Shown piece by piece: positions 2-5,094 of a stretch of 36,828 nucleotides of DNA. Made by a program: the position numbers and the translations under genes. The stretch covers positions 1 through 36,828 of the forward strand of contig JAHBUU010000008.1 of assembly GCA_019637895.1 (NCBI GenBank), in the 5' to 3' direction. The notes under the pieces were generated by a model. The model searched no databases, was not told the origin of the DNA, and worked only from the letters and a program-made list of their open reading frames with translations. Numbering within the stretch: the first letter of the stretch is position 1; every line of letters starts with the position of its first letter. This stretch comes from Pseudobdellovibrionaceae bacterium. GTDB lineage: Bacteria; Bdellovibrionota; Bdellovibrionia; Bdellovibrionales; Bdellovibrionaceae.

Positions 2-304
2 GAGGCGACTTTTGCCAAAGCCCTGCCGACGGATATCGGGACCCCCCTGTACGAACAACTGAAGTTCAAACTGGATCGTCGCACGCTGAGTTCAGAAGCC
101 TTGATCGAAAGAGGACGGCGCATGGTCGCCGATGGGGTCGCAACGCCAGATATTTTCCGAATCTTGATCGAACTCCTCGCCAAAACCGGCAAAGAGACTC
201 TGGCCGAGAGCCTGATCGCCAGGGCCGTTGAGTCACATCCCGACCTCAATCTCGAACTTTATGAAATTCTTCAGACGAATTTGAAGCCGTCAGACGGCGC
301 ATGA
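2..304 (+). CDS. C-terminal part of an unidentified protein
   Basis: The reading frame is open from the first bases of the window to a TGA at 302-304, so only the last ~100 residues are visible and the start lies upstream. The visible part is helical in character, with leucine and alanine spaced as in TPR-like repeats (residues around RILIELLAKTGKETLAESL). I do not recognise a family. It is convergent with zur and overlaps its 3' end by about 15 bases. The in-frame TTG at 101 is not needed as a start because the frame continues upstream. No function can be assigned from this fragment. Confidence 0.6.
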   Translation, partial: EATFAKALPTDIGTPLYEQLKFKLDRRTLSSEALIERGRRMVADGVATPDIFRILIELLAKTGKETLAESLIARAVESHPDLNLELYEILQTNLKPSDGA

Positions 305-730
305 TGTGCAGATACCGCGTAAAAAAAGCGGCTGATTGTCTCCGAAAAAACGAAATCCCCCCAGAGCCGACATCAAGGTATCGATTTTCTGGTGATCCTT
401 CACTTCCTGATGACGATGGCACTTGAGGCAGAAAAACAAAAGATGCGGATGGGCTTCGCACTCGTGAGAGCAGCACACGTAGCTATTCACGTCCACTTCG
501 TGAACGAGGCCCGCCGCTTTCAACAGATTCAGATTTCGATAGACGGAAACCCGGTCCACGTTTTCGAAAACCGTACCCAAGGTCTGAATCAATTCACCTT
601 GGCTCAAGGGACCCTTCTCGCTCATGAGCGCGCAGACGATCTCTCTCTTCAAAGGAGTCTTTCTCATGGAATGTTTGTCCATGAGGCGTTCCGCTTTTTC
701 CACGAGCTTCATTCGTTCTTGATTCGTCAT
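290..730 (-). CDS. zur: Fur-family transcriptional regulator, probably zinc-responsive Zur
   Basis: The 146-aa protein has an N-terminal winged helix (residues ~10-80, with the DNA-reading segment VSVYRNLNLLKAAGLVHEV) followed by a metal-rich dimerisation domain. Cysteines C101/C104 and C141/C144 form the structural zinc site. Their spacing (CxxC, 40 residues, CxxC) equals that of E. coli Zur C103/C106/C143/C146. The stretch HEVDVNSYVCC resembles the regulatory site of Zur, where an NSYV segment precedes a metal-binding Cys, and this favours Zur over Fur or PerR. The ATG at 728-730 was chosen because AAGGAGA lies 7 bases upstream. A longer upstream extension would only overlap the preceding gene. 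It overlaps the stop of the upstream thioredoxin-like gene as ATGA, so the two are translationally coupled. The neighbouring His-rich proteins and TonB receptor support a zinc role. A peroxide or iron sensor is the main alternative. Confidence 0.8.
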   Translation of the reverse strand: MTNQERMKLVEKAERLMDKHSMRKTPLKREIVCALMSEKGPLSQGELIQTLGTVFENVDRVSVYRNLNLLKAAGLVHEVDVNSYVCCSHECEAHPHLLFFCLKCHRHQEVKDHQKIDTLMSALGGFRFFGDNQPLFLRGICTSCAV

Positions 731-1155
731 GGCTGCATCTCCTTGATCTCTTTGCAGGACAGCGGCCCCACCTTGAGTCCCTTCCGACTCTGAGTGGTCG
801 GTGTGGCCATCAGAAATGAAAAATCTTTCCGGTTCTTCATCAGATACACCTGGGACCCCTCGGGCAAAGACCTGGCCCATCTTTTCGCACGGGACGCCGG
901 ATCCGTCGAAACATATCGCAGGCTCGCAGTGATCTCAGGGCCACACTCGCGCAAAGCCCGCAGGTAGCCCTTGCAGGGCACACAGTCCTCCTCGGCATAA
1001 ATCAACAGCAGCCCCTGAGAGAGCAGCTCCTCAGAAGCTGTCACCGCCCCGCTCCGAAGCTCAAAAAGCACCCCGGCTGACGCCGAGAAACTCGCCAAAG
1101 AACAAAGAGTTAACAAAAGCAGGGGGACCCCCTGACGGACCTTCCTCAAAAGCAT
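727..1155 (-). CDS. secreted thioredoxin-like protein with CVPC motif
   Basis: The 142-aa protein starts with a signal peptide (hydrophobic core PLLLLTLCSLASF, likely cut after ASA near residue 27). A short thioredoxin-like segment follows: strand LLLIYAEED, then C58-V-P-C61, then a helix, as in periplasmic redox proteins. Two more cysteines lie at 71 and 134. It is much shorter than a classical DsbA and lacks a visible cis-Pro signature that I can place with certainty, although a proline occurs in the MATPT segment near 119. It is the first gene of the minus-strand transcript, and its stop overlaps the zur start by four bases. Its location suggests handling of cysteines in the metal-binding exported proteins encoded divergently, which also carry two conserved cysteines each. 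That role is inference. Confidence 0.65.
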   Translation of the reverse strand: MLLRKVRQGVPLLLLTLCSLASFSASAGVLFELRSGAVTASEELLSQGLLLIYAEEDCVPCKGYLRALRECGPEITASLRYVSTDPASRAKRWARSLPEGSQVYLMKNRKDFSFLMATPTTQSRKGLKVGPLSCKEIKEMQP

Positions 1156-1227: not shown

Positions 1228-1674
1228 ATGATTCGTTTCCTAATCGCTTTCTCTTTGCTGGCCCTGAGCCCCTTTGCCCTGGCCAATGACCACGACCATG
1301 ACGACCATGATTTTCCAGAAGGCACCCTGATCGCCCTCGAAGGCCAGGACGCCGTCACCAAGAAAGAGTGCGCTCTGTTCGTGACTGACCTGGGAACCGT
1401 GGATGGTCGATTCTACGCCAAGGTCATCACCAGCTATATGCACGACCACGATCAACCGCAGGAAATTCTGGTCGGTGTTTCGCCAGAACGTCCAGACGTG
1501 CTGGTTGGAACCGGCGACAACGGCAAAGATCAAATCGCGATCTTCCTCGAATCCACCGAAGCCGACCTGCAAACGGCGCGCTCTTTCAATCTGAAGTGGT
1601 GGCACGTCAATCACTTCCACAGCTATCGCTGCGTGAACCTGAAGGTTCATGACCACGATCACGACGAACACTAA
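1228..1674 (+). CDS. secreted histidine-rich protein with KWWHVNH motif (paralog 1), probable metal-binding
   Basis: The 148-aa protein has a signal peptide (residues 1-19, cut after FALA) followed at once by an acidic His cluster NDHDHDDHD. The body contains HDHD at 72-75, a conserved block KWWHVNH at 123-129 and a C-terminal tail HDHDHDEH (141-148). Cysteines 48 and 135 are also conserved in the next gene's product and could form a disulfide. The alternating His/Asp clusters are typical of low-affinity zinc or nickel buffering regions. I do not recognise the family. The start has GGAGG (1217-1221) seven bases upstream of ATG. It is the first gene of a plus-strand operon with its paralog, a TonB receptor and TonB, divergent from zur. 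A periplasmic metal chaperone, or a partner on the periplasmic face of the receptor, is the best inference. Confidence 0.85.
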   Translation: MIRFLIAFSLLALSPFALANDHDHDDHDFPEGTLIALEGQDAVTKKECALFVTDLGTVDGRFYAKVITSYMHDHDQPQEILVGVSPERPDVLVGTGDNGKDQIAIFLESTEADLQTARSFNLKWWHVNHFHSYRCVNLKVHDHDHDEH

Positions 1675-1684
1675 GGAGAACCCG

Positions 1685-2077
1685 ATGCGCATCGCTCTTT
1701 TCTTGCTCGCCTTTTTTCCCGTCCTTTCGGCTCTGGGTGATCCATCCCGTGCCCTGATGATTTTCGAAGGAATCGATACGACCTCGAAAGAGCGCTGCCA
1801 TCTGTTCGTTTTGGCTGTCCAACAAAACTCGTCGGGACTGCAGAGCCTGGTCGTCACCACGGGGTATGGCCATGATCATGACCGCCCCCAGGCCCTGACG
1901 TTGGTTCCCCAGTCCTCACAGGTCTTCATGGGTTCCGCCAACGGAGGCCAGGATCAACTGGCCCTCTTTCTGGGAACACCATTCGATCTAAGATCCGCGC
2001 GGAATTTCAATTTCAAGTGGTGGCATGTGAATCATGCCCACACCTTCCAGTGCGCTCGTTTGCGCCAGATCAAGTGA
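1685..2077 (+). CDS. secreted KWWHVNH-motif protein (paralog 2)
   Basis: The 130-aa protein is clearly a tandem duplicate of the preceding one. Shared blocks in the same order are EG.D...K..C.LFV, HDHD.PQ (63-66), G.DQ.A.FL, AR.FN.KWWHVNH (111-117) and a final Cys at 123. It has its own signal peptide (about 17 residues) but lacks the N- and C-terminal His tails of paralog 1, so it keeps only the core HDHD and KWWHVNH motifs. The ATG at 1685 follows AAGGAGA, which directly abuts the upstream stop. A longer reading frame from 1649 was rejected because it overlaps paralog 1 and would destroy the signal peptide. The split into a His-tailed and an untailed copy suggests division of labour, for instance buffering versus specific binding. 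That is inference. Confidence 0.85.
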   Translation: MRIALFLLAFFPVLSALGDPSRALMIFEGIDTTSKERCHLFVLAVQQNSSGLQSLVVTTGYGHDHDRPQALTLVPQSSQVFMGSANGGQDQLALFLGTPFDLRSARNFNFKWWHVNHAHTFQCARLRQIK

Positions 2078-2087
2078 TCCGTTCCGC

Positions 2088-4214
2088 ATGAAAAACGCCT
2101 TTTTTGCTCTCAGCTTTCTGTTGTCGCTTTCCTTCGCCCACGGCCAGGAAACGACGGATCTCGTTCCTGAAATCGTCGTCTCGGAAAAACCCGAGGCGGA
2201 TCTCAGAATCAAAAAGTACGAGATCAATCGCATCGAGACTTTGAAACCGAAAGCCATCGAGAAAAAACAGGCGCAAACTTTCGCTCAAGCCATCGACAAC
2301 GAAAAAGGCATCGACACGCAAATATCCTGCGCCTTTTGCGGAGCCAAACGCATCACGATCAACGGCTTGAAGGGCGAACACACGACGATCCTCATCGACG
2401 GCTTGCCTCTGCACTCGACCGTTTCCGGTTTCTATGGGGTCGAAGCGATCCCTTTGGGTGGAGTCGATGCCATCGATATTTATCGAGGAGCCGGAGCAGC
2501 CCTCGCGGCTCCCGAGTCCATCGGTGGCGCCATCAATATCGTGACCCGTGAAATCGTCGCCAACGAACGTGAAATCAATCTCTCCCTGGCCGACGACGGC
2601 CAAAGGAATGTTTCCGCCCTGGTGACTCATAAAATTTCTGAACGAACCGGCGTTCTGCTCGGCGTTCAGTATGGCCAGATGTTCCCTTTGGATCTTGATC
2701 ACAATGGAATCGCCGAACTGCCCAGACAGACGACCTCCAGCGCCCTGGCCAAGATCTCTCACCGCCTGAATGAAACCGACGAAGTCAGCTTGCGACTCAG
2801 TTATGGAAAGCTGAAAACCATCGGTGGCACGATGTCGGAAACTCGCGTCGATGACGTTGTTCCTTCGGTTGCTCGTTCGGATGATTTTCAGGATCGCGAT
2901 GTGCGCAAAAAGTTCATCGGAGACGAAAGAAAAATCACCGACAATGTCGGGCTCGATCGTTTCGAGATCGCGGGCCTCTATCGCCGTCAACTCGACGAGA
3001 ACTCAAGCTTGAAGCTGAGCCTGGGTGGTGCCTATCAGGATCAGCGTGCGATCTACTCGCATGGTTACGACTATGACAATTTAGACCGGCTCTGGGTCGG
3101 CCTCGTCGAATACCAAAGAGCTCTGAATGACTCGCATCTGTTGACGGTGGGATTGGACTCGAAAAACCAGGATATGGATTCGACGTCGGACAGTCTGTAT
3201 CGTCAGCGGGGGCTTGCCCAGGATGACCTCAGATATCGCTCGATCGGCGGCTATCTGCAGGACACCTGGGTGATCGACGACGCCAACGAACTGTCGGCTG
3301 TTCTGCGCATCGATCACATCCAAACCCGTTGGCTTGATCTGGATAAAACTCTTGATCGCTCCGTGATCGCGCCACGCCTTTTGTACAAGCATATTCACAA
3401 TGAGGTCCTGACTTCGCGACTGGGTCTGGGCCTTGGCTATCGCTCACCGCTGACTTTGTTTGAAAGCATGCACGGGACCGACCACGAAGGCTTCTTGATC
3501 GACATCGATCGGCTCGAAACCGCACAGTCCCTCGTTTACTCGCTGGCCGGCCAAAGGCAGGATGACTTTTTCGAGGCGGGCCTTCATGTAACTCGACTCG
3601 AAAATATGGCCTACGGGGTGGATCAGGCGATCATTGCGGCACCGACCCTGTTCAAAAATGCGAACGAGGCCTATACCCTTTCGACCTACGATCTGAGCTA
3701 TGGCCGTCGTTTGACACCGAACTGGACAATGGAAGGAATTCTCGAGGTCTTCGACTTTCCTGCGGGCTATAAAGAAAAGCTTCCCGTCGCCGCCATCGAA
3801 AAGCGCCTGTCGGTGACTTCGGACCTCGAACTGGGGCCATGGACACTGTCACAGCGATTGAATGTGGTGGGCGAACGGGATCTGTCGGCCTACGGCTATG
3901 ACGATCACTACAATATCATCTTTCTGGATGAGGACGTTTCCAGTCCCACCTTCGATCAGCTGTTCCCCGAGTCCCAAAAGCGCCAAAAGTCGCCGACCTA
4001 CTTCACCGTGGATCTGACCTTCAGTCGGACCCTGACTGAATCTCTTTCACTCGGGTTGTCGGTTCTGAACCTCTTCGACTATACTCAGACCGGCGCGGGC
4101 GATAGCCCCACGACCTGGCATCTCCATGGGAAAGAATATCACCTCGATAACTTTCACATCTGGGGGCCCTTACGAGGACGACAGGTCTTCGTGAGTTTGA
4201 AAGGACTGTTTTGA
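2088..4214 (+). CDS. TonB-dependent outer-membrane receptor, probable metal (zinc) or metallophore receptor
   Basis: The 708-aa protein has a signal peptide (1-19) and a possible TonB box near residues 28-33 (EIVVSE). A plug domain (about 45-160) carries the typical segments ITINGLKGEHTTILIDGLPL and IDIYRGAGAALAAPESIGGA. A long beta-barrel follows, ending in an aromatic residue (LKGLF), as expected for insertion by the Bam machinery. The plug contains an unusual C81-A-F-C84 pair just before the ligand-facing loop. The ATG at 2088 gives a clean signal peptide. It lacks a strong ribosome-binding site but lies 10 bases after the upstream stop, suggesting coupled translation. It is followed directly by tonB. 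Gene order points to uptake of zinc or a zinc complex. A nickel, cobalt, copper or haem ligand cannot be excluded. Confidence 0.9.
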   Translation: MKNAFFALSFLLSLSFAHGQETTDLVPEIVVSEKPEADLRIKKYEINRIETLKPKAIEKKQAQTFAQAIDNEKGIDTQISCAFCGAKRITINGLKGEHTTILIDGLPLHSTVSGFYGVEAIPLGGVDAIDIYRGAGAALAAPESIGGAINIVTREIVANEREINLSLADDGQRNVSALVTHKISERTGVLLGVQYGQMFPLDLDHNGIAELPRQTTSSALAKISHRLNETDEVSLRLSYGKLKTIGGTMSETRVDDVVPSVARSDDFQDRDVRKKFIGDERKITDNVGLDRFEIAGLYRRQLDENSSLKLSLGGAYQDQRAIYSHGYDYDNLDRLWVGLVEYQRALNDSHLLTVGLDSKNQDMDSTSDSLYRQRGLAQDDLRYRSIGGYLQDTWVIDDANELSAVLRIDHIQTRWLDLDKTLDRSVIAPRLLYKHIHNEVLTSRLGLGLGYRSPLTLFESMHGTDHEGFLIDIDRLETAQSLVYSLAGQRQDDFFEAGLHVTRLENMAYGVDQAIIAAPTLFKNANEAYTLSTYDLSYGRRLTPNWTMEGILEVFDFPAGYKEKLPVAAIEKRLSVTSDLELGPWTLSQRLNVVGERDLSAYGYDDHYNIIFLDEDVSSPTFDQLFPESQKRQKSPTYFTVDLTFSRTLTESLSLGLSVLNLFDYTQTGAGDSPTTWHLHGKEYHLDNFHIWGPLRGRQVFVSLKGLF

Positions 4215-4852
4215 TGAAGGACCCTCGAATCGCACCGACAGCAGCTTGGCTTTTCAGCCTCGTTCTTCATGCGGTTCTTTTCGGTCTGCTGTTGTTGCCG
4301 TCGATGAAATCATCCTCTGATGAAATCAATATTGATCTCATTTCGCTTCACGAGGTGGGCACTTCGGCATCAGTTTCCTCTCCGGCCGTTCGGAAAAAAC
4401 AAGTGGCTCTGCCGAAACCCGAAACAGCAGCGGATGCCTCATCACCTGTCGAAAAAGCAGCTCCGAACGAAACGACGTCCGTTCTCGCTCCCGACAGCCA
4501 AGCCCTCGAAGGAGACTCGGACCTCAGCAGCACCGTCGCCGGCCAAGCCCCCAGAAACTCCAAAGAAAGATACCTGGCTGGACTGAGAGACCAAATCGCC
4601 AGACATCAAATCTATCCGCAAGCTTCACGATCATTCCAAGAAGAAGGCATGGTCAAAATCCGCCTCACCCTCGACCGAAGCGGCTCGTTACTCAAAGTCG
4701 AACTCGTCGAATCCTCAGGCCACAAACGCCTCAACGACGCCGCCATCCGAGCCGCCGCCAAAGCCGCCCCCTACTCAACCTTCCCCGAAGACATCTCTTT
4801 CCAAACCTGGAAAATCCTAGTCCCCGTCCGCTTCACTCTCGCACAAAAATAA
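4214..4852 (+). CDS. tonB: TonB-family energy transducer
   Basis: The 212-aa protein has one N-terminal membrane segment (about residues 12-30, WLFSLVLHAVLFGLLLLP). A periplasmic linker rich in Ser/Ala/Glu follows, rather than the usual Pro-Lys-Pro repeats. The C-terminal domain (about 110-210) has the family pattern GMVKIRLTLDRSGSLLKVELVESSG..LNDAAIRAAAKAAPY. It transmits inner-membrane proton-motive force from an ExbB/ExbD complex, not encoded here, to the receptor's TonB box. The ATG at 4214 overlaps the receptor's TGA by one base (TGATG), indicating coupled translation and a dedicated pairing. A TTG at 4211 is a possible alternative start one codon earlier. Being the last gene of the operon, it ends just before a region with a very large hairpin. 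Confidence 0.9.
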   Translation: MKDPRIAPTAAWLFSLVLHAVLFGLLLLPSMKSSSDEINIDLISLHEVGTSASVSSPAVRKKQVALPKPETAADASSPVEKAAPNETTSVLAPDSQALEGDSDLSSTVAGQAPRNSKERYLAGLRDQIARHQIYPQASRSFQEEGMVKIRLTLDRSGSLLKVELVESSGHKRLNDAAIRAAAKAAPYSTFPEDISFQTWKILVPVRFTLAQK

Positions 4853-4920: not shown

Positions 4921-5094
4921 ACAACCTGCAAGACCTCCAGGTTTTGAATCGGGGGCCGGACAGGCCATCCGGGATGCGAGTTTTGGATTGGCGCGAGCTT
5001 GCGCACGCAAGCGAGTGCCAAGACAAGTGTCTGAGACAGCCCGGTTGGCCTGTTCGGCCCCCGATTCAAAACCGGGTAAGGGCCTGCAGATGTT
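4921..5094. repeat. large nested inverted repeat (possible REP/MITE-like element, structured RNA or bidirectional terminator)
   Basis: Two 34-base arms (4940-4973 and 5040-5073) are complementary except for one G-T pair and one mismatch. Each arm begins or ends with the GGTTTTGAATC/GATTCAAAACC block next to a G/C-rich GGGGGCC/GGCCCCC block. Outside these arms, weaker complementarity continues (CAACCTGCA at 4922-4930 with TGCAGATGTTG at 5086-5096). Inside the loop a second hairpin is formed by TTGGC/GCCAA (4988-4992, 5017-5021) and CTTGCG/CGCAAG (4998-5003, 5006-5011), and AGACA/TGTCT (5021-5031) could form a third small stem. It sits between the convergent ends of tonB and a methyltransferase gene. 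No coding potential is evident. There is no T-run of the kind expected of a simple intrinsic terminator. Confidence 0.75.

Follow-up and report, generated by a model that had tools for sequence, protein, structure and literature searches.

What do two small proteins do that are encoded in tandem directly in front of a TonB-dependent receptor (TBDT) gene and match no recognized family? The pair, P0001 and P0002, lies in a 36,828-nt stretch of DNA from a Pseudobdellovibrionaceae bacterium, referred to here as the window. A reading of the letters and translated ORFs (the sequence-only reading) had described two related, exported proteins sharing two cysteines, HDHD and a KWWHVNH block. The genes and the site that surround the pair are as follows.

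290–730, minus strand: Fur-family regulator, Zur-like (FUR PF01475, 38.9 bits; NCBIfam Zur PRK11639, 55.3 bits against a cut-off of 167)
727–1155, minus strand: small exported CxxC (CVPC) protein, thioredoxin-like, divergent from the operon (AhpC-TSA, 15.6 bits, below the 26-bit cut-off)
1186–1200, no strand assigned: Zur-box-like palindrome TGCAACTATGTTGCA in the divergent intergenic region
1228–1674, plus strand: P0001, exported compact member of the KWWHVNH family, 148 aa, His/Asp runs at both ends, motif HVNHFHSYRC
1685–2077, plus strand: P0002, tandem paralogue without His tails, 130 aa, motif HVNHAHTFQC
2088–4214, plus strand: TBDT, 708 aa (Plug PF07715, 55.4 bits; barrel PF00593, 33.2 bits)
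4211–4852, plus strand: TonB-like energy-coupling protein (TonB_C PF03544, 52.5 bits), likely start ATG 4214

Beyond the TonB-like gene, and before a methyltransferase-like gene, positions 4935–5085 (151 nt) fold into an almost perfect hairpin (DNA fold -57.5 kcal/mol, z -11.1). Blastn located it at 21 places in this genome, a number that includes its own copy on each strand; it is a repeated palindromic element.

The tandem pair and its predicted fold

The two ORFs proved to be related, as had been read from their sequences: BLASTP aligned P0001 and P0002 with 45 of 111 residues identical (41%, E 4e-31), a score that shows the likeness is not due to chance. Judged by eye, both carry a hydrophobic export signal at the N-terminus and neither has a lipobox. 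The ATG at 1685, with AGGAGA just 5' of it, is the preferred start of P0002; the mechanical ORF, which runs from 1649, overlaps P0001. His/Asp runs were confirmed at both ends of the mature P0001 chain, and P0002 has none. No family had been recognized for the pair, and no Pfam or NCBIfam model exceeded its cut-off for either protein; the sole sub-threshold row, DUF5130 (E 0.052, 14.3 of 27 bits), was rejected as chance. Searches of PDB sequences with profiles of 6 and 19 rows returned chance rows only (E 1.1), and P0001 had no relative among plasmids up to E 1.

The mature chains were modelled by AlphaFold with 6 sequences. The models of P0001 (m082d9903d777; pLDDT 84.3, pTM 0.79) and P0002 (m9ee69ae6933b; pLDDT 86.4, pTM 0.81) are each a single small barrel of eight strands. 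The motif occupies strands 7 and 8, the last hairpin, whose two-residue turn separates H126 from H129 in P0001. Structure prediction had been proposed as a way to see whether the conserved histidines can meet; in both models the HVNHxH histidines flank the hairpin turn and so can meet, and the strand register would place H126, H129 and H131 on one face. Foldseek returned a best E of 0.086. In VIA, the best match had Z 7.6 for P0001 (rmsd 4.2, 103 aligned) and Z 8.8 for P0002 (rmsd 3.2, 101 aligned), where avidins, GID4, designed barrels and a domain of unknown function scored nearly alike, with the small-barrel antigens fHbp and NHBA among the weak matches. These matches suggest a common small-barrel arrangement rather than kinship, and point to no specific relative.

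In the family tree, P0001 and P0002 are sisters (support 88/82), and the branch leading to P0002 is about ten times as long as that of P0001 (1.61 vs 0.16). Such a branch is expected if the histidine-less copy changed its role or lost constraint; the proposed duplication is borne out by the tandem sisters. The second tandem pair, in G023, has a long-branched second copy that found no place in the tree, and may represent a separate duplication. His-rich ends occur in five compact members, and both second tandem copies are without them.

A wider family with a short conserved core

With P0001 alone as the query, matches were obtained in 4 of 59 related genomes, its own included. The profile search that had been suggested for the pair revealed a wider family: a 6-row profile matched 17 of the 368 genomes of the phylum, and a 19-row profile matched 20 of 368, those in G276, G255 and G026 being weak. 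Pfam gave nothing over cut-off for any of the 19 compact members. A single scan of 84,980 named species genomes with a narrow peptide pattern yielded 46 stretches, of which 4 were confirmed relatives, hosted by two Bdellovibrio or Bdellovibrionales and by two entries named 'Proteobacteria bacterium'. Our literature search, which included the four motif strings, found no description of the family.

Across the 19-row alignment (P0001 numbering), G39, C48, W124 and C135 never vary, H126 and H129 hardly do, and position 131 reads as His in 17 of the 19 members. The features on which the sequence-only reading had built the family were therefore retained in part: both cysteines are present in 19/19 members, G188 included, but HDHD and the literal KWWHVNH are not conserved, and HDHD is absent in most members. 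A shared site built from HDHD, KWWHVNH and the cysteines can therefore not be general, and HDHD was dropped as a family-wide site. The conserved core of the family is two cysteines plus H-x2-H-x-[HD]-x(0-6)-C.

The G188 member (L038, 6674–7102) retains both cysteines, has lost all three motif histidines and has no adjoining receptor gene; perhaps it has taken on a new role.

Besides the compact form, partner proteins occur in a long form (about 230–270 aa) and a third form. The long form has an invariant N-terminal cysteine that looks like a lipobox in 10/10 members, and usually a His/Asp-rich tail. Profile comparison linked compact to long with a probability of 95.7 over 33 columns only, and compact to third with 90.4 over 107 columns; long against third gave 5.0. 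On these values, the three forms are likely to constitute one superfamily.

Receptor, redoxin and partner genes across the phylum

We then consider the receptors with which these proteins are encoded. A search of the phylum with the window receptor as query, at E 1e-40 or better, found 43 places in 40 of 368 genomes; two of the places are pieces of one broken gene, which leaves 42 receptor genes. A gene with H-x2-H-x-[HD]-x(0-6)-C lies directly upstream of 30 of these. Four further loci (G253, G252, G250 and G057) have an upstream gene that by eye looks related but departs from the exact motif, and seven (G152, G144, G139, G145, G138b, G011b and G056) have no partner upstream; at G234 the contig ends upstream of the receptor gene. 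The weak family match G026 has no receptor at the cut-off used. Within the receptor regions, the motif is specific to partner genes: it was found in 34 of 604 ORFs of 80–330 aa, of which 32 are partner genes (the 30 upstream genes plus two tandem copies) and the remaining 2 encode Fur proteins. That the window pair forms part of a metal-uptake module coupled to the receptor is well supported, and the partner family is a new element of an otherwise known kind of receptor module.

Redoxin-like genes, detected by an HMM seeded with 12 genes, most of them from the same receptor regions, lie near 34 of the 42 receptors; TonB-like genes lie near 20 and Fur genes near 14. Because all seven partnerless receptors, broken G056 included, keep a redoxin-like gene in their region, the redoxin and the receptor seem to form the core of the system, with the partner as an add-on. 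At the G056 locus (L164), the receptor gene is divided over two reading frames; either the gene is broken or the assembly is in error.

A second receptor type, with plug CSICG and no His partner, was seen in G144, G139, G145, G138 and G011 (L135–L138, L139). A CxxC redoxin gene overlaps directly downstream of it, in a two-gene module like TBDR-pTFP, a known system discussed below.

C-x2-C-G is present in the plug of every receptor whose plug is visible (41 of 42), in the variants CAFC, CANC, CSNC, CVNC, CATC and CSIC; none reads CQNC, and the G011b plug, CSICG, misses the longer pattern used. In the window receptor it is CAFC, at codons 2328–2339. From alignment with known receptors, we take this CxxC to lie in the substrate-facing segment of the plug. 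NCBIfam lists selenocysteine forms with CxxU (see also the selenoproteome study PMC13188914), and NCQSCG occurs in a receptor encoded on a Bacteroidota plasmid, indicating that the CxxC plug is a wider feature.

A rival reading has the partner act through its cysteines instead, exchanging electrons with the CxxC redoxin or serving as its substrate, with histidines that are structural. The redoxin gene adjoins the operon, and both cysteines persist in all 19 members, including G188 with its lost histidines. The cysteines, however, occur singly and at a distance from each other, as they would in a structural disulfide, and the redoxin stays with partnerless receptors, making the plug its more likely target. 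We regard such a role as highly improbable.

The receptors that come with a partner also carry histidines near their C-terminus. Just before the last strand, HxH[LFYI]D occurs in 30 of the 31 partner-bearing receptors that can be read to the C-terminus (three others end before this point and were left out of the count). The remaining one is that of the window genome, G000, which has the variant YHLDNFH; the His-rich segment before its last strand reads YHLDNFHIWGPLRGR. Five of the 7 partnerless receptors lack the cluster, and G152 and G056 keep it. Because the five are probably one clade, the association of cluster and partner is suggestive only. As proof of direct contact between receptor and partner, the cluster was weakened by that probable clade and by the two partnerless receptors that keep it.

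A further rival reading places the partner on the outer face of the outer membrane, where it would hand metal to the receptor, as TbpB and HpuA do for theirs. TbpB/TbpA and HpuA/HpuB have the gene order of the window, with the accessory gene directly before that of its TonB-dependent receptor; TbpB and HpuA are surface lipoproteins for host iron proteins. Capture at the surface would fit the partner-then-receptor order seen wherever both genes are visible, the lipobox-like cysteine of all ten long-type members, the His cluster or its variant in 31/31 partner-bearing receptors against its absence from 5/7 partnerless ones, and fHbp and NHBA among the fold matches. These accessories are lipoproteins, whereas by eye P0001, P0002 and most compact members have no lipobox, so that the periplasm is the default; moreover, the cluster association rests largely on one partnerless clade, and the fold matches are not specific. 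We consider surface capture unlikely, although it deserves more credit than the cysteine role. Which side of the outer membrane the partner occupies is the least secure point of our preferred reading, set out below, with the periplasm distinctly the likelier location.

Metal, proposed mechanism and known systems

Which metal does the module serve? From 17 upstream regions we read off the palindrome pattern TGCAAnTnAnTTGCA, which precedes most partner operons. The best site upstream of the 32 partner genes has at most 1 mismatch in 18 cases and at most 2 in 25; among 14 long- or third-type operons that were not used for the pattern, the numbers are 9 and 13. The loci of G325, G279, G280, G188 and G125 have no box nearby. 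The window's own genome has 4 sites with at most 1 mismatch, compared with 1 for a control pattern, and the window site at 1186–1200 is one of the 4. The only perfect copy in this genome precedes znuC-znuB-znuA (contig C190, locus L050, 694–3049). Two further weak sites show no visible link to zinc.

Across 39 genomes, three sites matched the 17-bp pattern perfectly, and each stands before znuCB; in two cases a Fur gene comes first (zur-znuCB). At 4 of the 29 loci kept from this search, tblastn found ZnuB together with ZnuC. In one relative, a ZrgA gene (L065, 1518–2006; PF10986, 90 bits) stands directly before a perfect Zur-like box, followed by zur-znuC-znuB. The own genome has four Fur genes; the divergent Fur neighbour in the window is Zur-like, as a candidate only. 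Genes of the cobW type lie near the operons of G023, G325 and G065. A search for ZinT in the own genome found none. The window palindrome also resembles ATGCAACnnnGTTGCAT, which a 2004 study predicted as the ZUR box before znuABC-zur in Desulfovibrio (PMC545781, in the portion of that account concerned with this box). The Zur-box-like palindrome, znuCBA, the Fur/Zur-like gene and the cobW-type genes in relatives together make zinc the likely metal, and the zinc link entertained in the sequence-only reading is thus upheld by context.

ZnuA-type transporters can also carry manganese, and the module might serve manganese, iron, copper, nickel or cobalt, the partner binding that metal. The closest published pair of a CxxC-plug receptor and a thioredoxin-fold protein is under MntR (PMC13217887, as described there in part), a CbiM-like ORF was noted by eye near the G325 operon, and cobW genes are not zinc-specific. 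Against this stand the match of the box to the predicted ZUR box (PMC545781, same portion), its position before znuCB(A), zur or zrgA beside the box in relatives, and the neighbouring Fur protein, whose best family-level row is Zur. We judge another metal to be quite improbable, rather more so than surface capture.

The explanation that we favour, and hold to be probable, is that P0001 and P0002 are Zur-controlled accessory zinc-binding proteins of a CxxC-plug TBDT module for uptake under zinc starvation, and pass zinc to ZnuA. At low zinc, a Zur-type repressor would leave the palindrome at 1186–1200, and the operon would be turned on along with znuCBA, which lies at another place in the genome. 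The zinc site of the receptor would involve the plug CxxC, and probably histidines of the barrel as well, and TonB energy would move the metal into the periplasm, while the small exported CxxC redoxin would keep the plug cysteines reduced. P0001 and P0002 would then take zinc through the H-x2-H-x-H histidines of the hairpin, helped in P0001 by the flexible His tails, and pass it on towards ZnuA; a role as periplasmic carriers in this hand-over is our best guess. The seven receptors without a partner count against this explanation, as the partner is not obligatory. So do the G188 and G026 members, which come without a receptor, the five loci that lack a box, the two weak box sites with no zinc link, the manganese carried by some ZnuA-type transporters and the manganese link of the closest published module.

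A bolder version is tentative, and we lean against it: a redox-gated zinc importer of new make, in which plug CxxC and last-loop histidines would form a Cys2His2-like zinc site readied by its own redoxin, and the barrel-domain family, in its compact, long lipoprotein and third forms with their terminal H-x-x-H...C or something close to it, would be the receptor's dedicated zinc carrier across Bdellovibrionota. Little is known about the passage of zinc and other bare metals across the outer membrane via TonB-dependent receptors, or about what receives them beyond it. The partner family offers a specific candidate for this carrier, linked to a single receptor type by where its genes lie, and the module gives the CxxC plug and redoxin a testable role. 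The phylum, which counts predatory bacteria among its members, would thereby gain a defined module for zinc uptake.

The closest known system is TBDR-pTFP of Stenotrophomonas maltophilia, described as manganese-linked, MntR-controlled and having a CQNC-type plug (PMC13217887, in part). Both systems combine a CxxC-plug receptor, an adjacent small exported CxxC protein and a metal-responsive repressor, putative in the window. The TBDR-pTFP protein has a thioredoxin fold; the window protein is thioredoxin-like, with an AhpC-TSA match (15.6 bits) below the 26-bit cut-off. The window plug is CAFC rather than CQNC; and the window box and neighbours point to Zur, with a Fur-family regulator, rather than to MntR. 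What is described of TBDR-pTFP mentions no His-rich partner (PMC13217887), whereas in the window a partner gene precedes the receptor.

Three exported zinc proteins are also comparable. ZepA, as characterized in part of its report, is Zur-linked, carries H-X2-9-H-[FY]-H and sometimes has TBDT neighbours (PMC10957091). HVNHFH of P0001 fits this motif and HVNHAH of P0002 does not. P0001 was considered as a ZepA for this reason and set apart by the ZepA description: ZepA has two domains, an Ig-like sandwich and a second fold, with its motif at precursor residues 80–91, whereas P0001 and P0002 have one eight-stranded domain and the P0001 motif is on the last hairpin.

ZinT, a calycin-type barrel, is described in outline as a Zur-controlled periplasmic zinc protein that assists ZnuA. 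Its profile (PF09223) gave no row up to E 1 for P0001 or P0002, which matched small barrels only (Z 7.6 and 8.8); that ZinT and ZepA are missing from the fold-match lists carries no weight as evidence. ZrgA/PA4063 is a small exported His-rich zinc protein of zinc-uptake loci, a setting like that of the window pair. The ZrgA profile PF10986 gave no row for either protein, and the NCBIfam ZrgA model reaches 3 of the 10 long-type members (best E 1.5e-4), perhaps by way of their His tails; PA4063 is reported, in the part of its description that treats the fold, to be ferredoxin-like (PMC8561739). By the tests made, P0001 and P0002 are not members of the ZepA, ZinT or ZrgA families, but they may work like them.
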